Source: Clostridia bacterium | GTDB taxonomy: Bacteria; Bacillota; Clostridia; Oscillospirales; Acutalibacteraceae | Assembly: GCA_017517865.1 (NCBI GenBank) | Contig: JAFWYB010000053.1 | Span: 1 to 32,254, forward strand | DNA length: 32,254 bases | Reading direction: 5' to 3' | The notes under the pieces: model-generated | Seen by the model: the letters and a program-made list of their open reading frames with translations, nothing else | The model's database searches: none | What the model was told of the DNA's origin: nothing | Made by a program: the position numbers and the translations under genes | In this document: piece after piece, positions 9,218-20,262 of the stretch | Numbering within the stretch: position 1 is the first letter of the stretch | How the letters are laid out: each line of letters opens with the position of its first letter

Positions 9218-9790
9218 TTCGAGGAAGGCAGAGGTTTACTGTTTTAACACACGTAGCTGTAACTTGCAGAAGGTAAAGAGGCATTCTCTGACTTAAATCT
9301 CACTTTAGCGGTCAGCGAATGTCGGAATATACGGCAGTTAAACAGCAGACGAGAGTATTAGACAAGTTTAACAAGCTGACGGAGAGGTACAACCGAGCGG
9401 GCGATTTCATTAAACATATAAGTAAGCTGAGCTGTGAAACTCTCGACTGTCGGTAAAGCAGACGAGCAGAAACGCGGCGTGAGTGAAGATAAAGATTAAA
9501 GCTTTTTAAGAGTCTGGCGAAAAAAGGTTCTATTAAGCTTACTTAAGAGGGACACTTAGCACTTTCGGACTCCTTGCACCAAAGAGCGCTTTGCATACTT
9601 TGTCGCTCAGGACAAAGTATGAGCCCCCGCGGCTTGAGCGGAGGGCAAGGTGTTTTTTTATAGAACATAAAGGTGAAAAAGAAAAACCTCTCCGTCCTTC
9701 GGACACCTTTTCCTCCGGAAACGGGCACCCTTTTGTCTGCTTCGCAGACATTTCCCCTGACAGGGGAATTTCCTTTCAGGCGAGGCATTA
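9218..9790 (+). repeat. Intergenic repeat family, copy B
   Basis: The most complete copy. The lead-in (GGCAGAGGTTTACTG ... GTAAAGAGGCATTCTCTGAC) is shared with copy C. Then come the 45-codon frame (9319-9456), the TTTCGGACTCCTTGCACC block, hairpin CATACTTTGTC (9594-9604) with GACAAAGTATG (9611-9621), the GC hairpin (9623-9646), and ACATAAAGGTGAAAAAG. A run of tiny hairpins ends the copy: GTCC-ttc-GGAC, GTCTGC-ttc-GCAGAC, TTCCCCT-gac-AGGGGAA. The main stem differs from copies A and C but remains fully paired. Confidence 0.75.
9319..9456 (+). CDS. 45-residue reading frame inside repeat copy B
   Basis: Starts MSEYTAVKQQ and contains LDKFNKLTERYNRAGDFIK. It has the same length, start and stop as the frames at 26-163 and 17550-17687. 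It differs from copy A at about thirteen codons, several of them synonymous, with no indels. The sequence upstream of the ATG does not continue the NHHGSG extension seen in copies A and D; a TGA lies in frame about ten codons upstream. No ribosome site is evident. Expression is unproven. Confidence 0.4.
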   Translation: MSEYTAVKQQTRVLDKFNKLTERYNRAGDFIKHISKLSCETLDCR

Positions 9791-9794
9791 AGTG

Positions 9795-9950
9795 TATCTT
9801 CTCCGCGGCTTGAGCGGAGGGCGAGTTGTTTTCTTTTTCATCTATATGCTGTGTATAAAAACAACCCGACATCGCTCATGCCGCTTGGGCACTTCCTTTG
9901 GCCTGAGCCCCAAAGGAAGCAAAAGGCTCTTTGGCCTCGAAACGAGTGTC
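9795..9950 (-). repeat. Partial reversed copy (F) of the hairpin module
   Basis: Read on the minus strand this gives CAAAGAGCCTTTTGC, a perfect hairpin CTTCCTTTGG/CCAAAGGAAG (9919-9910 with 9901-9892), GCCCAAGCGGCATGAGCGATG, then ACAGCATATAGATGAAAAAG. It keeps the module's order in the opposite orientation to its neighbours B and C, with a third stem sequence. Confidence 0.6.
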
Positions 9951-10152: not shown

Positions 10153-10730
10153 ATAGGAAGGCAGAGTTTTACTGTTTTAACACACGTAGCTATAACTTGC
10201 AGAAGGTAAAGAGGCATTCTCTGACTGAAACAGCCTTGTAGCGTGAGCGCGGTGCGTACTACCCGTAAAGCTGCGAGCAGACGATAATGGTGGGGGCTCG
10301 GGCGTTCGGGATGGGTGAAAAGGTAGCGGGCGGCTTTATTAAACCTTCAAGTAAGCTGAGCTGTGAAACTCTCGACTGTCGGTAAAGCAGACGAGCAGAA
10401 ACGCGGCGTGAGTGAAGATAAAGATTAAAGCGTTTTAAGAGTCCGGCGAAAAAAGGTTCTATTAAGCTTACTTAAGAGGGACACTTAGCACTTTCGGACT
10501 CCTTGCACCAAAGCGTGTTTTTGCTTCCTTTTGTCACAACCGACAAAAGGAAGAGCCCCCGCGGCTCGAGCGGAGGAGGAGCTGTTTTTATATACAACAT
10601 AAAGATTAAAAAGCAGAACCTCTCCGTCCTTCGGACACCTTTTCCTCCGGAAACGGGCACCCTTTTGTCTGCTTCGCAGACATTTCCCCTAACAGGGGAA
10701 TTTCCTTTCAGGAGAGGCTAAAAGGATTAA
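10153..10730 (+). repeat. Intergenic repeat family, copy C (5' part of the frame replaced)
   Basis: It shares its lead-in with copy B and its second half with A and B, but about 10227-10325 carries unrelated sequence where the start of the 45-codon frame should be. The main hairpin CTTCCTTTTGTC/GACAAAAGGAAG is at 10524-10535 and 10542-10553. The block ACATAAAGATTAAAAAG and the run of tiny hairpins (GTCTGC-ttc-GCAGAC, TTCCCCT-aac-AGGGGAA) follow. Confidence 0.72.
10287..10385 (+). pseudogene. Truncated remnant of the 45-residue frame in copy C
   Basis: The last half of the frame (GGFIKPSSKLSCETLDCR, then TAA) matches copies A and B. The N-terminal half is replaced by unrelated sequence; an in-frame ATG at 10287 gives 32 codons. 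This is either a recombinant copy or a decayed one. Confidence 0.4.
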
Positions 10731-15050: not shown

Positions 15051-15767
15051 ATGTCGACTTCACTTCCCGTTGTTTCTAAGGGTGAAAAAATAATATGGTG
15101 GGGCTGTCGCCTTGCTCTGTTTATCTGGGGCATATGGGGGCTTCTTTACGGCTACACCTCAGATTTCATTCAGGCAACCTTTGCAATAATCTTTACCCAT
15201 CTTTGGGATATCTTTCAGTTAGCGCCGGGGAAATCCTTTATCAAGCGCCTTCCCGCCTATCTTCAGACTATGCTCAACATATTCATATGCTTCGGCTGTG
15301 TGGTGGGCACCACTCTCAATTCGCGTACCGATTTTACGGGCATAGATATTCCCGAGCACTGCTTTGCAGGCTACCTTGCAACAACCGGCGGCTTTATTCT
15401 CGCAGGTCTTATGCAGGGCGAGAAGAGACCTCTCAAGGTTTCCGTTCAGGCGATGTTCGGTCTTGGCTTCGGTGTTGCAATTCTCGTCGGCTGGGAGTTT
15501 TATGAATTCACAATGGACCGCCTTTACGGCTTTACAATGCAGCACGGTCAGGTGAGCGGCTCATACGGTCTTACCGATACAATGGTTGACCTTATTGTCG
15601 GCACCGTCGGTTGCCTGATTGCTATGTTTGCCGAGGCCTTCCGCAAGGTAGGGCTTTACGGCAAGGGCAAGGAAGAAAGAAGAAAGGCTTTCCGTGAGGA
15701 AAGAGCCGAGGTCAGAAGGCAGAAGGCTCTTCTGAAAGACGGAGAGGTCTGGGGTGGTAATATATGA
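15051..15767 (+). CDS. Membrane protein of unknown function, DUF2238/YjdF-like
   Basis: A 238-residue protein with about five or six membrane helices between residues 15 and 195, then a basic, charged tail (KGKEERRKAFREERAEVRRQ). The pattern VGWEFYEFTMDRLYG ... GLTDTMVDLIVGTVGCL resembles the acidic WE/TDTM-DL signature of the DUF2238 (YjdF) family; this assignment is from pattern memory. Its stop overlaps the murE start by ATGA, so the two are translationally coupled. TATAAT (14999-15004) lies upstream with a weak -35. A link to cell-envelope work is inferred only from that coupling. Confidence 0.6.
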   Translation: MSTSLPVVSKGEKIIWWGCRLALFIWGIWGLLYGYTSDFIQATFAIIFTHLWDIFQLAPGKSFIKRLPAYLQTMLNIFICFGCVVGTTLNSRTDFTGIDIPEHCFAGYLATTGGFILAGLMQGEKRPLKVSVQAMFGLGFGVAILVGWEFYEFTMDRLYGFTMQHGQVSGSYGLTDTMVDLIVGTVGCLIAMFAEAFRKVGLYGKGKEERRKAFREERAEVRRQKALLKDGEVWGGNI

Positions 15768-17230
15768 TTTTAAGCGAAATTTTAAGGGACGTTGAATACA
15801 GCTGTGCAGACTTCCGCGACACAGAAATATCCGATATTGCCTACGATTCAAGAAAGGCAGGAGAGGGTATAATATTCGTCTGCCTTGAGGGTGCCTTTGC
15901 CGACGGACACAAGTATGCGAAAAGTGCTTACGATAAGGGCAGCAGGGTTTTCGTCTGTCAGAAAAGCGTTGCTCTGCCCGAAGATGCTCTCGTTATCATA
16001 ACGGAAAATACCCGCTCTGCGCTTGCAAAAATGAGCTGCAGCTTTTTCCGCCACCCTTCAAGAGATATTGCGGTTATCGGCATAACGGGAACGAAAGGAA
16101 AAACAACCGTTGCCCATATAGTAAAATTTGCCCTCGAGGAAGCAGGCGTAAAATGCGGTATCATCGGTACTGTGGGTGCCTTTTACGGTGATACGGTGCT
16201 TCCCACGATAAATACAACTCCGGAAAGCTATGAGCTGCAGAAAATGCTCCGTCTTATGGCTGACGGAGGCTGTAAAGCGGCGGCTATTGAGGTTTCTTCT
16301 CTCGGACTTAAGGCTCACCGCGTTGAGGGTACCGAGTTTGCCTACGGCGTGTTCACCAATCTTTATCCCGACCATATAGGCACAAACGAGCACGATTCCT
16401 TTGAGGAATACGCTTATTGGAAGGCTCAGCTTTTCCCGATGTGCAAAAAGGTTGTTGTAAACAGCGACGACCCCTTCAGTGCGGAAATGACGAGAGGCTT
16501 CAGCGGTGTGATTTATACCTACGGAAGCGACGGTCATGCAGACCTGCGTATGCTTTCTATGAAAAAGGAAAAGCTCGGAAGCCGTCTGGGTATGAGCTTT
16601 GATGCGGTTATTCTCGGTGATAAGCGCAGCTGTAAGGTGAGTCTGCCCGGTGATGTCAACGCTTATAACAGTCTTGTTGCAATCGCTATTGCCTGGGATA
16701 TGGGGCTTGAGCAAGAAAAGTACCTTGAGGGTCTTAAAAAGGTTTTCGTCAAGGGCAGAGGCGAGGTTGTTGAAACAGGCGAGGATTTCACTGTTATTAT
16801 AGACTATGCTCATAACGGTATAAGCCTTAAGAGCATTATAGAAACGGCAAAAAGCTATGAGCATAACAGAATAATTTCACTTTTCGGCTCCGTTGGCGGA
16901 AGAACAGAGTGCCGCCGTGAAGAACTCGGTACCGTTTCGGGTGAAATGAGTGACCTTTCTATTATCACAAGCGATGACCCCAATTTCGAGGATCCACGGA
17001 AAATCTGTGAGGAAATTGCCTCATATTGCAAGGGCGAATACATTATCATCCCCGACAGAGCCGAGGCTATACACTATGCGATGAAGATTGCCGAGGCGGG
17101 AGATATTATCATTCTTGCGGGCAAGGGACACGAGAACTATATGAAAATAAACGGTGAAAATCTTCCCTTTGACGAGAGAAAGGAAGTTGCTGAGGGGTTA
17201 AAGGCAAGAGCTCTGAAGGCTGATTTATAA
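15764..17230 (+). CDS. murE: MurE-type UDP-MurNAc-tripeptide ligase with a lysine-type motif
   Basis: A 488-residue Mur ligase, normal MurE length, adding the third amino acid to UDP-MurNAc-L-Ala-D-Glu. The ATP loop GTKGKTT is at 109-115, TTPESYELQ at 151-159, the Lys of YWKAQ (likely carbamylated) at 220, DYAHN from 347, DDPN at 404-407, and GKGHE at 453-457. meso-DAP enzymes carry DNPR in this place, whereas lysine enzymes carry D(D/N)P(N/A), so L-Lys is predicted. It is not in a division/cell-wall cluster and could be a second MurE with a special role. The start overlaps the previous gene. A terminator follows. Confidence 0.88.
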   Translation: MILSEILRDVEYSCADFRDTEISDIAYDSRKAGEGIIFVCLEGAFADGHKYAKSAYDKGSRVFVCQKSVALPEDALVIITENTRSALAKMSCSFFRHPSRDIAVIGITGTKGKTTVAHIVKFALEEAGVKCGIIGTVGAFYGDTVLPTINTTPESYELQKMLRLMADGGCKAAAIEVSSLGLKAHRVEGTEFAYGVFTNLYPDHIGTNEHDSFEEYAYWKAQLFPMCKKVVVNSDDPFSAEMTRGFSGVIYTYGSDGHADLRMLSMKKEKLGSRLGMSFDAVILGDKRSCKVSLPGDVNAYNSLVAIAIAWDMGLEQEKYLEGLKKVFVKGRGEVVETGEDFTVIIDYAHNGISLKSIIETAKSYEHNRIISLFGSVGGRTECRREELGTVSGEMSDLSIITSDDPNFEDPRKICEEIASYCKGEYIIIPDRAEAIHYAMKIAEAGDIIILAGKGHENYMKINGENLPFDERKEVAEGLKARALKADL

Positions 17231-17248
17231 CTTTTATATTCTGCAAGC

Positions 17249-17278
17249 AAACAGCTCGTGATTTCACGGGCTGTTTTT
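17249..17278 (+). terminator. murE terminator
   Basis: AAACAGCTCGTGA and TCACGGGCTGTTT form an imperfect stem ending in TTTTT, 19 nt after the stop codon. Confidence 0.8.
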
Positions 17279-17329
17279 ATGTCTCTTTATTTGGTGAAGG
17301 TGGTGTGGAGTGACGGCGAGGTTGAGCCT

Positions 17330-17720
17330 TTTTAATCTTTATGTTGTATGAAGAAACAATTCGTCATCCGCTCAAGCCGCGGTGGCTCATACTTTGTCCT
17401 GAGCGACAAAGTATGCAAAACGCTCTTTGGTGCAATGAGTCCGAAAGAAATTCGCTGAGGATTTCAATTTCTGTTTCAGTAAACTGAAAGGTTATACTTT
17501 CCATAAAGTTTTAATCAAACTTGTGGGCTCATATTTCTCCTCGTCTGCTTTACCGCGGCTCGGGTATTTCATAGCTCAACTTACTTATATGTTTAATAAA
17601 GTCGCCCGCTCGGTCCTGCTTCTCCGCAAGGCTGTTAAACTTGTCTAATGACATCGTCTGCACCTCAGGAAACGTGTATTCCGACATTCGAAGACCGCTC
17701 CCGTGGTGGTTTCAGTAAGA
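17330..17720 (-). repeat. Intergenic repeat family, copy D (reverse orientation)
   Basis: Read on the minus strand it has the shared GAGGCATTCTCT lead-in, the 45-codon frame (17687-17550), a diverged middle, TTTCGGACTCATTGCACC, hairpin CATACTTTGTC/GACAAAGTATG (17415-17405 with 17398-17388), the CCGC/GCGG hairpin, and ACATAAAGATTAAAAAG. It is the most diverged copy, yet it keeps the frame and both hairpins. Confidence 0.72.
17550..17687 (-). CDS. 45-residue reading frame inside repeat copy D
   Basis: Starts MSEYTFPEVQ and contains LDKFNSLAEKQDRAGDFIKH. It has 45 codons, the same start and stop as copies A and B, and no indel or frameshift despite many substitutions (several synonymous: GAT/GAC, CTG/TTG, TTC/TTT). 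NHHGSGLR precedes the ATG in frame, then a TGA. Persistence of the frame in the most diverged copy is the best hint of selection on protein. No ribosome site is seen. Confidence 0.4.
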   Translation of the reverse strand: MSEYTFPEVQTMSLDKFNSLAEKQDRAGDFIKHISKLSYEIPEPR

Positions 17721-17969
17721 GAATGCCTCCGAGCTTCTGCATAGTAAAGATATAGAGTTCATAACAACCTTGCCCGCTGCCGGAGCCACGGACGCAGGGC
17801 GGGACAAACGTTGTTGAAAAGTAAAACCTTGCGCCATCGTCAGCATCTGCGCTAAAGGTTTTATTGAAACTGTTGTGTTGGGTAAAAGCACAGCTTAACC
17901 GCTGCCGAGTATTGTGGCGTAGGGCGGACTACACCTTTTTTTAAAATAAAGAGCCTGACGGCTACTGAA
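17721..17969. other. Intergenic tract with an imperfect direct repeat
   Basis: About 35-bp imperfect direct repeats at 17772-17808 and 17898-17934 share CGCTGCCG and AGGGCGG. I find no coding frame or regulatory motif. Confidence 0.4.
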
Positions 17970-18110
17970 AGCGTGTTTTTGCTTCCTTTTGTCACAACCG
18001 ACAAAAGGAAGTGCCCCCGCGGCACGAGCGATGACGAACTGTTCCTTCGTACAACATAAAGATTAAAAAGCACCTGTGTAAACCTCTCCGTCGCTGTGCG
18101 ACACCTCCCC
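17970..18110 (+). repeat. Partial copy (E) of the hairpin module
   Basis: GCGTGTTTTTGC, hairpin CTTCCTTTTGTC/GACAAAAGGAAG (17982-17993 with 18000-18011), CCCCCGCGGCACGAGCG, then ACATAAAGATTAAAAAG. The upstream half of the repeat, including the 45-codon frame, is absent. Confidence 0.65.
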
Positions 18111-18142
18111 ATATCAGCAAAACAACCGCCTTAAACATAATT

Positions 18143-18250
18143 CACCGCAAATAAAGGCGATATGTCGCTTCGCATGCGATATACCTGCGGTGGCGATATA
18201 TCTTCCCTTTCGGGTAAGACGCGATATGTTTGCCGTTGGCAAACGCGAAA
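18143..18250. repeat. Hairpin ladder with GCGATAT spacers
   Basis: Small inverted repeats (GTCGC-ttc-GC.., ATCTTCCC..GGGTAAGA, GTTTGCC-gtt-GGCAAAC) are separated by the recurring word GCGATAT. A wider CACCGCA (18143-18149) and TGCGGTG (18186-18192) pair encloses part of it. No gene is present. Confidence 0.55.
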
Positions 18251-18287
18251 AGAGCAGGAAAAGGACAATTCCCTTCCTGCTCTTTTT
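18248..18287 (-). terminator. Terminator of the racemase gene
   Basis: AGAGCAGGAA and TTCCTGCTCT are separated by a 13-nt loop. On the minus strand this is followed by TTTT. It overlaps the racemase stop codon and could act in both directions. Confidence 0.75.
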
Positions 18288-19026
18288 ATCTGTCAAAATC
18301 TTCGGAAAACCCCGTTGTCTCGCTGCCGCAAGACCTTATCGCCGTATATGCAAGCACTTCAAGTGAATCTGTGAAAAGCGGATCACCGCCGACTGCGCGG
18401 TTGATAAGCGAAAGCTCAGTACAGCCCAGAATGATTTTATCACAGCCCTGATTTGTCAGATGCTTTGCCACCTTATAGAACTTTTCGATGTCAGGCTCCT
18501 TGCCGCTTTTTACGTCGTCGTAAATAAGCTCGTGCAGATACTGCTGATGCTCCTCATCGGGTACTGCCCAGCCGAGACCTCTTAATTCAAGCTGATGCTG
18601 ATAAGAGCCGCTTGAAACCGTACCTGCCGTTGCCATAATGCCTGCCTTTTTGTAGCTCGCTCTTTTAAGGTGCTCACTCGTTTCCTCTATAATTCCGGGT
18701 ACGGGAACCTTGACATTTGCTCTTATTTCCTCAACGAAATAGTGAGCGGTGTTGCAGGGGATAACGATAACATCGGCACCGTAAATTTCAAGCCGCATTG
18801 CATCCTCAACCATATATGGCAGAGGGCTGTCGTTGCTTTTGCCCGTGATGAAGGCGGTTCTGTCGGGGGTTGAAGCTCTTGAAGACAGGATTATGTCGAT
18901 ATGCTCCTGATCCCTTGAAGCCTTGGTATGAGCTGTTATGAGCTCATAGAAATATGCACTTGCCATAGGTCCCAGACCGCCGAGAATACCCAGCAGAGGA
19001 CGTTTAACTATACTCAAATCAGACAC
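18286..19026 (-). CDS. Aspartate/glutamate racemase family protein
   Basis: A 246-residue PLP-independent two-cysteine racemase: GILGGLGPMAS at 13-23, PCNTAH with Cys91, GCTEL with Cys202. Both catalytic cysteines are present. The opening and the length fit aspartate racemase better than MurI. It converts L- and D-aspartate (or glutamate) in the cytoplasm. It lies 12 nt after an ATP-grasp ligase gene, the arrangement expected for D-Asp supply. The start is a GTG at 19026 or a TTG at 19017; the latter has better spacing from AAAGAAAGAAG. Confidence 0.88.
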   Translation of the reverse strand: MSDLSIVKRPLLGILGGLGPMASAYFYELITAHTKASRDQEHIDIILSSRASTPDRTAFITGKSNDSPLPYMVEDAMRLEIYGADVIVIPCNTAHYFVEEIRANVKVPVPGIIEETSEHLKRASYKKAGIMATAGTVSSGSYQHQLELRGLGWAVPDEEHQQYLHELIYDDVKSGKEPDIEKFYKVAKHLTNQGCDKIILGCTELSLINRAVGGDPLFTDSLEVLAYTAIRSCGSETTGFSEDFDR

Positions 19027-19038
19027 TTCTTTCTTTGA

Positions 19039-20262
19039 TTATCGGGGGTAGTAAACCTTGAATTTCTTATGCTGTCTGCGAAGAACCTCAAGCACACAGA
19101 TAAGGCGCATGGGGTTGCCCTTAAGGTCATAGCCGTAAAGCAGAGAGGATGTGCTTTTGCCTGCGTCTGCGAGCTCCTTAGCTTTTCTGACGAGCTCCTT
19201 ATCCTCGGTGTAGGTGAAGGCAACCTTTGAGGGCACATAGTGCCAGAAGTGCTCGTTCTCGTTAAGCACGCAGTCGTCGTTTCCGTCGTCCCACTTTTCA
19301 ACGGCAAGCTTTGCTATATTCATACCGCAGGAGGTAACGTAGAAATTACTTCTGCCCTGGCGTAAATTGATTTCAAACACTCTGAAATCGTCACCTTCGC
19401 CCGTGTGCTTGATATCGAAATTTGAAAAGCCCGTATATTTCATATCCTCAAGCATATTTTTTATGTTTTCGGCAAAGGCATAGTTCTTTACCGGCTCGGT
19501 AACAATGGCGGCGTGATTGCCGAGAGCCTTTGGAGTATGCTCCTCAACCATTGTGTGACCCAGACACATAGCACGCACCTTACCGTTTTTGTCTGAGAAA
19601 GCGGTAAGAACTCTCATATGTGAGTCGCCGCCGGGTACTACCTTCTGAAGAATGAGCCTTTCGGGATAGCCCGAGGCATAAATCTCACTGCAGATTTTTA
19701 CCGTGTCGGCAGGGTCTTTGGCAAAATAAACCTTCTTCATACCGTCAAAGGGGAACTTCCAATAGTCAACGCTTGATGAGGGCTTTATTACTATGGGGTA
19801 ATCAAAACCGAGAGCCTCAGCGGTAACGGCAGACTCCTCGGGTACTTCGGTAAGCACCACAGTATCGGGATAGGGGATACCGTACTTTTCGCAGACCTCA
19901 TAGAACTCAGCCTTTTTTTGAATAGAGGTATAAAGCTCAGCGGGAGGGCAGGGAGCGATATAATCGGGCAGCTCTGCCTTTCTGCGGATAATCATAGCCG
20001 CATAGTCGTCGGTACAGCCGAAAAGGTAAAGAGAGGCACCCTCGTGCTCCTTTGCAAAGGCTGTAAGCTCTCTGAGCATTGTTTCCTCATTGTCGATATC
20101 GGGAACAACCTTGAAGTTGATTATTTTTGAATATTTGGTTGCAGACATCTCATATCTGCCGAAGGCATAGGATTTTACTCCGTAGGCCTCGTGAAAGGCG
20201 CGGGCAAAATTGTAGCAGTTAAGGTCCGCACCGAGAAAAACGGGAACAATTTTTTTATCCAT
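19039..20262 (-). CDS. ATP-grasp ligase, probable D-aspartate ligase (Asl-like)
   Basis: A 407-residue ATP-grasp protein. Its opening VPVFLGADLNCYNFARAFHEAYG and its length resemble the D-aspartate ligase of Enterococcus/Lactococcus (about 400 residues), which joins D-Asp through its beta-carboxyl to the lysine side chain of peptidoglycan precursors. ATP-grasp features are YPIVIKPSSS with Lys160, QKVVPGGDSHMRV, and the Mg-binding FEINLRQGRSN (Glu297, Asn299). The racemase gene follows at 12 nt. Other ATP-grasp amino-acid ligases remain possible. No strong ribosome site adjoins the ATG, and a good AGAAAGGAG lies oddly about 40 nt upstream. Confidence 0.75.
   Translation of the reverse strand: MDKKIVPVFLGADLNCYNFARAFHEAYGVKSYAFGRYEMSATKYSKIINFKVVPDIDNEETMLRELTAFAKEHEGASLYLFGCTDDYAAMIIRRKAELPDYIAPCPPAELYTSIQKKAEFYEVCEKYGIPYPDTVVLTEVPEESAVTAEALGFDYPIVIKPSSSVDYWKFPFDGMKKVYFAKDPADTVKICSEIYASGYPERLILQKVVPGGDSHMRVLTAFSDKNGKVRAMCLGHTMVEEHTPKALGNHAAIVTEPVKNYAFAENIKNMLEDMKYTGFSNFDIKHTGEGDDFRVFEINLRQGRSNFYVTSCGMNIAKLAVEKWDDGNDDCVLNENEHFWHYVPSKVAFTYTEDKELVRKAKELADAGKSTSSLLYGYDLKGNPMRLICVLEVLRRQHKKFKVYYPR

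Follow-up and report, generated by a model that had tools for sequence, protein, structure and literature searches.

Does a clostridium that carries a lysine-type MurE beside a D-aspartate ligase-like protein and an aspartate racemase build its cell wall on L-lysine and D-aspartate, on meso-diaminopimelate (DAP), or on both? The question is posed by a locus on contig JAFWYB010000053.1 of a Clostridia bacterium from the family Acutalibacteraceae (assembly GCA_017517865.1); the whole 32,254-nucleotide stretch analysed is called the window here. An original prediction, made from the letters of the window, had proposed lysine–D-aspartate side chains rather than the DAP wall usual for Clostridia, or a second precursor line alongside it. 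Our analysis favours the second option. We consider it probable that the locus belongs to a second, non-DAP precursor line, likely with lysine and a D-Asp branch, that operates beside a DAP line, that gene transfer replaced its branch enzyme, and that DAP perhaps serves the spore cortex. A like doubling of wall-precursor sets appears in many related genomes.

A second MurE without the DAP-clamping arginine

The frames of murE2 (the second murE of this genome), the racemase and the ATP-grasp ligase are all intact. MurE2 (15764..17230, plus strand) has 488 residues, with DDPN at residues 404–407, as predicted, and GKGHE at 453–457. It scored 396.5 bits against the NCBIfam MurE model TIGR01085 (cut-off 257.3) and passed three Mur-ligase Pfam models. 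The DNPR-type motif of meso-DAP enzymes, with its carboxylate-binding arginine, is absent; DDPN instead fits D(D/N)P(N/A), the pattern that goes with L-Lys. Among MurE2 orthologues, D, G or Q is commoner than N at position four, so the match to the lysine pattern is not conserved. DDPN by itself is poor evidence; the conserved neighbourhoods and trees are beyond chance.

We read the relatives of MurE2 in 14 more family genomes: two sisters of the same genus, whose MurE2 proteins are 62 and 70% identical to that of the window, and 12 genomes from seven other genera. After D(D/N)P, the residue is N, D, Q or G in all 14 and arginine in none. TIGR01085 matched 188 family genomes; motifs were read in some of these, and the list of MurE2 genomes is therefore non-exhaustive. 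In a 164-row MurE tree, built by a quick method with Shimodaira–Hasegawa-like approximate likelihood ratio test (SH-aLRT) supports and with Staphylococcus aureus MurE left outside, 58 rows read D(D/N)Px with no arginine, and 56 of them formed one clade (SH-aLRT 97). The remaining two were placed in a second non-arginine group of 26 rows (SH-aLRT 100), mostly EDPG, from Lachnospiraceae-like and other genomes and from Coriobacteriia. MurE2 of the window groups with MurEs devoid of the DAP-clamping arginine, and its predicted substrate is a diamino acid other than DAP, with L-Lys the likeliest.

A probable D-aspartate ligase and its racemase

On the opposite strand lie a putative ATP-grasp protein of 407 residues (19039..20262, minus strand; FEIN at 296–299) and, starting 12 nucleotides past its end on the same strand, a 246-residue racemase (18286..19026) with cysteines at positions 91 and 202, an arrangement that agrees with the prediction. 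No Pfam or NCBIfam model matched the ligase over its cut-off; the sub-threshold matches were to ATPgrasp_Ter and carbamoyl phosphate synthase-like models only. In the PDB, a sequence search returned one match to another kind of protein (E 0.02), and a profile search returned none at 0.01. Three lactobacillar ligases from plasmid records, however, align over 99–100% of its length at 31–35% identity (E 2e-64 to 5e-75; 31–36% in a further comparison), above the next-best other ligases in these records (21–25%, E 1e-7 or weaker). They come from L. crispatus (annotated as hypothetical), L. fermentum and L. curvatus (both annotated as carboxylate--amine ligase). The L. curvatus gene stands beside an amino acid racemase gene and that of L. 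crispatus beside asnB. With these lactobacillar ligases as reference, the window ligase has both the full-length relation and the racemase partnership expected of a D-aspartate ligase (Asl); the likeness noted originally was to the opening of the Enterococcus enzyme. By its sequence the protein is of the D-aspartate ligase kind and, judging from its family, would add D-Asp to the stem peptide.

The racemase aligned with the aspartate racemase 1jfl (E 1.8e-50), including Cys91 (PCNTAH) and Cys202 (GCTE), and scored 228.9 bits against TIGR00035 (cut-off 93.1). It has both catalytic cysteines and is related to aspartate racemases.

Asl operons in other clostridia

A scan of a species-genome collection returned at least 580 Asl relatives, and neighbourhoods were counted at the best 80 loci, 72 of which include at least 2.5 kb of downstream sequence. 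Within 4 kb downstream of Asl, a racemase gene is present in 64 of the 80, a MurE gene in 63 and both in 53; an AsnB gene is adjacent in 37. The MurE adjoining Asl lacks arginine in every readable case (61/61). Among the matches listed, the closest 14 ligases (63–82% identity; L174–L187) all lie in a row AsnB–Asl–(racemase)–MurE on one strand, with the racemase unrecognised in two.

The ligase tree nests the window ligase among 15 of these operon rows (a 16-row set, SH-aLRT 100). The smallest set that contains it has three rows (SH-aLRT 97), and the nearest of the rows is 82% identical. Ligases of the window's own family lie far from it.

Two other arrangements were noticed. In Drancourtella, Mordavella and Claveliimonas (L221, L226, L230), an Asl–racemase–MurE row with EDPG adjoins a DNPR MurE. 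A 215-kb circular record labelled as a Subdoligranulum variabile plasmid (L170, OY725879.1) carries a pair of Asl (52%) and racemase (50%).

Probable replacement of FemAB by Asl

In the window's relatives a different enzyme accompanies MurE2. FemAB is encoded directly after murE2 in 12 of the 14 other family genomes, once as a fusion protein of 933 residues (L129); in the remaining two, G012 and G143, murE2 has FemAB genes some 2 kb upstream on its own strand. All seven of the FemAB proteins that were scanned passed Pfam PF02388. Both genus sisters have FemAB and no Asl match, and the window genome has no FemAB match. It is the sole genome without FemAB, and the sole one with Asl, among the 15 family MurE2 genomes read.

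Across 200 genomes of the family, strong Asl matches occurred in 27 and FemAB over the cut-off in 59, with an overlap of zero against eight expected (P = 3.5e-5, the genomes being counted as independent and kinship ignored). Two weak matches out of 29 were dropped from the Asl count (G136, E 4.5e-17, 27% identity; G086, E 4e-4). G086 has FemAB, and keeping the weak matches gives an overlap of one in 29. Out of 60 FemAB matches, one below the cut-off was left out, that of G056, which has Asl; keeping it likewise gives one overlap. Four genera (g1, g14, g50 and g95) include both kinds, in different species.

In the MurE tree, the window's MurE2 belongs to a subclade of 11 rows, the other ten of which are FemAB-linked (SH-aLRT 99), while the 41 MurEs of Asl operons form a separate subclade of the large non-arginine clade (SH-aLRT 97). 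Four more FemAB-linked rows (g7, g12) adjoin the Asl-operon subclade (SH-aLRT 92); row L165 counts as FemAB-linked, not as an Asl operon. Tree positions and gene content together point to displacement of FemAB by an asl–racD pair transferred from the operon lineage, without that lineage's AsnB and MurE. The ancestor of the genus would have made its branch with a FemAB encoded directly after murE2; in the window genome, FemAB would have been lost and an asl–racD pair from the AsnB–Asl–RacD–MurE lineage would have settled nearby.

A DAP line in the same genome

The window genome has two MurEs over the TIGR01085 cut-off, 35% identical to each other: the DDPN enzyme of the window and a DNPR enzyme on contig C56. 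The latter lies in the dcw cluster, behind a penicillin-binding protein gene and before MraY (neighbours named by eye). DapF and SpoIVA are both present, so that this genome unites two MurE kinds with a sporulation marker. A DAP line therefore exists, and the wall is not simply one with lysine instead of DAP. The proposal of a lysine–D-aspartate wall in place of meso-DAP is not supported: a standard DNPR MurE, which together with a wall free of Lys and Asp had been named as refuting it, was found in the dcw cluster. The milder version, in which a second line runs beside the DAP one, agrees with the DNPR and DDPN pair, and the suggested search for diaminopimelate genes recovered DapF.

From the best 80 Asl loci, 38 cassette genomes were searched; all have a MurE, 31 of them with at least two matches. 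Asking why both kinds are kept, we compared the MurE sets with SpoIVA (PF09547; control matches in Bacillus subtilis and Thermotoga maritima, over the cut-off in one). Of 54 genomes, the 51 with a non-arginine MurE were used, 42 of which also have an arginine MurE; G213 and G218 (arginine MurE only) and G237 (two arginine MurEs) were left out. Six family genomes with other kinds of second MurE, described below, lay outside this set. SpoIVA was over the cut-off in 39 of the 42 genomes with both MurE kinds versus two of the nine with the non-arginine kind only (Fisher P = 3.3e-5); the match of G160 (8e-5), below the cut-off, was scored as absent. The nine are G047, G166, G160, G063, G216, G224, G226 (Slackia), G235 (Collinsella) and G236 (Eubacterium brachy), of which Slackia and Collinsella are Actinomycetota. 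Of the seven genomes with neither an arginine MurE nor SpoIVA, five have no DapF match. This pattern suggests that growth needs no MurE beyond a non-arginine one, and that the DAP line accompanies sporulation.

Two loci are of separate interest. In G177 (C34:62971-65873), a DNPR MurE lies within about 1 kb of spoIVA on the same strand. The MurE (DDPG)–FemAB fusion of 933 residues (L129:8188-10989) belongs to G160, where SpoIVA over the cut-off, a DapF match and another MurE match are all absent.

Weighing the explanation

The steps that we propose are as follows. MurE2 would extend UDP-MurNAc-L-Ala-D-Glu with a diamino acid other than DAP, in all likelihood L-Lys or, less probably, another one. 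The racemase would convert L-Asp to D-Asp, and the Asl-like ligase, by analogy with its family, would couple D-Asp to the side-chain amino group to form the interpeptide branch. The genome probably retains the DNPR MurE of its dcw cluster for the spore cortex and uses the non-DAP line for the vegetative wall, as the correlated loss of DAP line and SpoIVA suggests. More tentatively, many spore-forming gut Clostridia could share this design: a non-DAP vegetative wall made with a special MurE clade and interchangeable FemAB or Asl–RacD, plus a spore-only DAP wall made by the dcw MurE. Lineages that cease to sporulate would then drop the DAP line, and the window would capture an exchange of branch enzyme within one genus.

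A number of observations weigh against the dual-line explanation, and they are taken here together with the alternatives that they touch. The first concern the amino acid. Residue four of the motif in the kin is mostly D or G, not A as in S. aureus, so lysine is not pinpointed, and the specificity of S. aureus MurE is reported not to be fixed by the motif alone (PMC3829189). The arginine rule is itself imperfect, as Ureibacillus terrenus (G237) has two MurEs that both carry arginine (DDPR and DSPR). The wall of this species is of the Lys–D-Asp type. Its two MurEs coexist with an asl–racD pair (L257, L291).

Ornithine is one substitution to consider: the same two lines, with MurE2 adding L-ornithine and the wall being Orn–D-Asp. 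The missing DAP clamp is compatible with any cationic side chain, and the kin vary at position four (D, N, G, Q). A homologous ligase is present in Limosilactobacillus fermentum, which has an Orn–D-Asp wall. Nothing positive points to ornithine in the window, however, and the specificity of S. aureus MurE for ornithine is given as 400-fold below that for lysine (PMC3829189). We regard the ornithine version as unlikely. Of the predicted Lys–D-Asp branch, the D-Asp part is supported by the ligase kind and by the operon-like rows of such a ligase, a racemase and a non-arginine MurE in other clostridia, and the non-arginine clade speaks for a non-DAP residue; lysine remains the likeliest choice for that residue, with ornithine possible.

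The second set of objections concerns the division of labour. Of 21 loci drawn, 17 have the DAP MurE inside a dcw cluster, the place expected of a vegetative enzyme. The SpoIVA pattern is broken by G063 and G216, which have SpoIVA and no arginine MurE that we found, and by G202, G208 and G210, which have both MurEs and no SpoIVA that we found. The genomes compared are related, come from few lineages, include several incomplete assemblies and were selected by their MurE rather than randomly; the MurEs of three of the nine genomes with the non-arginine kind only (G047, G166, G160) are sisters in the tree. The vegetative wall could accordingly be DAP, with the non-DAP line a minor or conditional precursor. 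The dcw position favours this. Against it, the seven genomes without SpoIVA over the cut-off or an arginine MurE have only a non-arginine MurE, and most of them lack the DapF match, as described above. A minor role has, in our judgement, a small chance of being correct. The idea that the DAP MurE stands beside sporulation genes as a rule was rejected: besides the 17 dcw loci, three were solitary and one (G177) lay by spoIVA.

The third set concerns the acceptor of D-Asp. In the 26 Asl-bearing family genomes other than that of the window, a MurE was found in 25 and two motifs were unreadable; all 23 readable MurEs carry arginine. The genomes of L191 and L197 likewise have Asl while the sole MurE found has arginine. 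Asl therefore does not need a non-arginine MurE, and some clostridia may attach D-Asp to DAP. The window genome could be among them, with D-Asp going onto the meso-DAP stem from the DNPR MurE and MurE2 being a side paralogue with another task. The position of its ligase in the tree argues otherwise, as it comes from the lineage with non-arginine MurE operons, not from the family lineage; and FemAB adjoins or lies near MurE2 at all 14 other family loci read, once fused to it, which speaks against a side task. We hold D-Asp on DAP to be improbable in this genome, somewhat more so than the two alternatives above.

A simple link between Asl and non-arginine MurEs across the family was also rejected, the window genome being the only one of 27 with strong Asl seen with a non-arginine MurE. 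The other 26 (L039-L062, L064, L065) form an observation of their own: Asl, often with racemase and AsnB (AsnB in 18 of the 26 stretches), occurs where the only MurE that could be read has the DAP-type arginine. Walls with mDAP–D-Asp or D-iAsn are possible there.

Second MurEs are of more than one kind. Two MurE matches occur in 20 family genomes, 18 of which were read (G082 and G140 were left out). In five (G026, G038, G111, G123, G128), the second copy is another paralogue with NSPR, NCPR or ASPR. A further genome, G176 (L326), has tandem MurEs, DNPR then DNPG, and no FemAB or Asl match, which counts against our explanation: a second MurE, even a non-arginine one, does not always go with a branch enzyme. 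We therefore dropped the idea that second MurEs are always MurE2-like (other second copies in six of 18). The five paralogues (L320, L321, L322, L324, L325) have an altered GKGHE, reading GKGHW, GKGDK or GKGNV.

The final objections concern the pair itself: AsnB, usual in the cassette, is missing from the window genome apart from two short matches below the cut-off, and the cysteate racemase model CuyB also passes on the racemase (198.2 versus a cut-off of 190). A role of the pair outside the wall, in making a soluble D-Asp peptide or a cysteate product, is nevertheless very unlikely, for although CuyB lies just over its cut-off and the pair is not co-transcribed with murE2, the kin have the ligase in a row with MurE and AsnB, L. 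curvatus and L. crispatus have its homologues beside a racemase gene and asnB respectively, and Asl and FemAB exclude each other.

Layout of the locus

The plus-strand murE2 and the minus-strand racemase and ligase genes are convergent, with a gap of 1,055 bp, so the two groups are not a single operon in the window. murE2 is the second gene of a plus-strand pair. The first (15051..15767) encodes an unclassified, by eye membrane-like protein of 238 residues and overlaps murE2 by four nucleotides. It lies upstream of murE2 in all three genomes of the genus read (the window, L121 and L122); it had no Pfam or NCBIfam match at 0.001, and no homologue was seen in the murE2 stretches compared outside the genus.

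Between murE2 and the racemase gene lies a dispersed repeat of 743 bp (17328..18070) with 41-nucleotide inverted ends that are 93% complementary. It occupies the place where FemAB stands in the kin. Searches of the approximately 1-kb gap with 11 FemAB proteins gave chance-level matches only, with no FemAB remnant. Partial copies of the repeat occur near 9265-9924, 1-407 and 10325-10628 of the window, giving at least four copies or parts per 32 kb.

Base composition was rejected as a sign of foreign origin: the GC fractions of asl and racD (0.475 and 0.482) fall within the range of the remaining window genes measured (0.447–0.499). GC content is uninformative either way, and the argument for transfer relies on tree and gene content.

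Significance for gut clostridia

Wall chemistry is unrecorded for most gut clostridia. The table of a 2024 review lists DAP for Blautia and Faecalibacterium, A1-gamma and Lys for Clostridium and several types for Eubacterium, and leaves the wall type blank for many other gut genera (PMC11382707). Listings from an open-licence literature library showed no paper on a dual wall-precursor system in Clostridia; the term peptidoglycan is absent from the Romboutsia ilealis genome paper (PMC5598433). If Lys or Orn walls with D-Asp or L-amino-acid branches are built by many of these bacteria and DAP is kept for spores, then the signals to host NOD receptors, the sensitivity to lysins and wall taxonomy would all change. 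Analysing the walls of spores and of cells would then put the tie between DAP and sporulation to a direct test.

Comparison with known systems

The closest parallels to the pair are AslA, RacD and AsnH of Lactococcus lactis and Aslfm of Enterococcus faecium, which make an L-Lys–D-Asp/D-Asn bridge; as there, the window has a ligase, of the putative ATP-grasp type, with an aspartate racemase gene. In L. lactis, aslA and racD are reported in one operon, with AsnH as the D-Asp amidating enzyme (PMC4155827), and the window ligase's kin resemble this in having an AsnB-type gene beside the ligase. Unlike in L. lactis and E. faecium, the window ligase has a second MurE gene nearby, and its genome retains a DAP MurE and lacks AsnB; its sequence was compared with lactobacillar ligases. 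The three lactobacillar stretches have no annotated MurE gene, whereas the clostridial rows include their own non-arginine MurE.

MurE2 resembles the L-lysine MurE of S. aureus, in which Asp-406 and Glu-460 are described as binding the lysine amino group and the DAP-clamping arginine is missing (PMC3829189). Asp404 and Glu457 of MurE2 correspond to these residues, and arginine is absent. In contrast to the DNPA of S. aureus, MurE2 reads DDPN and belongs to its own clostridial clade.

The predicted role of the ligase, branch addition, is also that of FemAB, which holds the place after murE2 in the genus and family kin; the window genome differs from these bearers in having no FemAB match. Enzymes of the FemAB/FemX type use tRNA-borne L-amino acids.

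As a whole, the proposed arrangement is closest to that of Lysinibacillus (Bacillus) sphaericus, which has a Lys–D-Asp vegetative wall and a DAP cortex. L. sphaericus belongs to the Bacillales, and its relative U. terrenus has two arginine MurEs; the window genome is clostridial, and the split of its wall is a prediction from genes. The two are alike in having two MurE kinds together with sporulation genes, and in the clostridia compared here the DAP kind tends to accompany SpoIVA.

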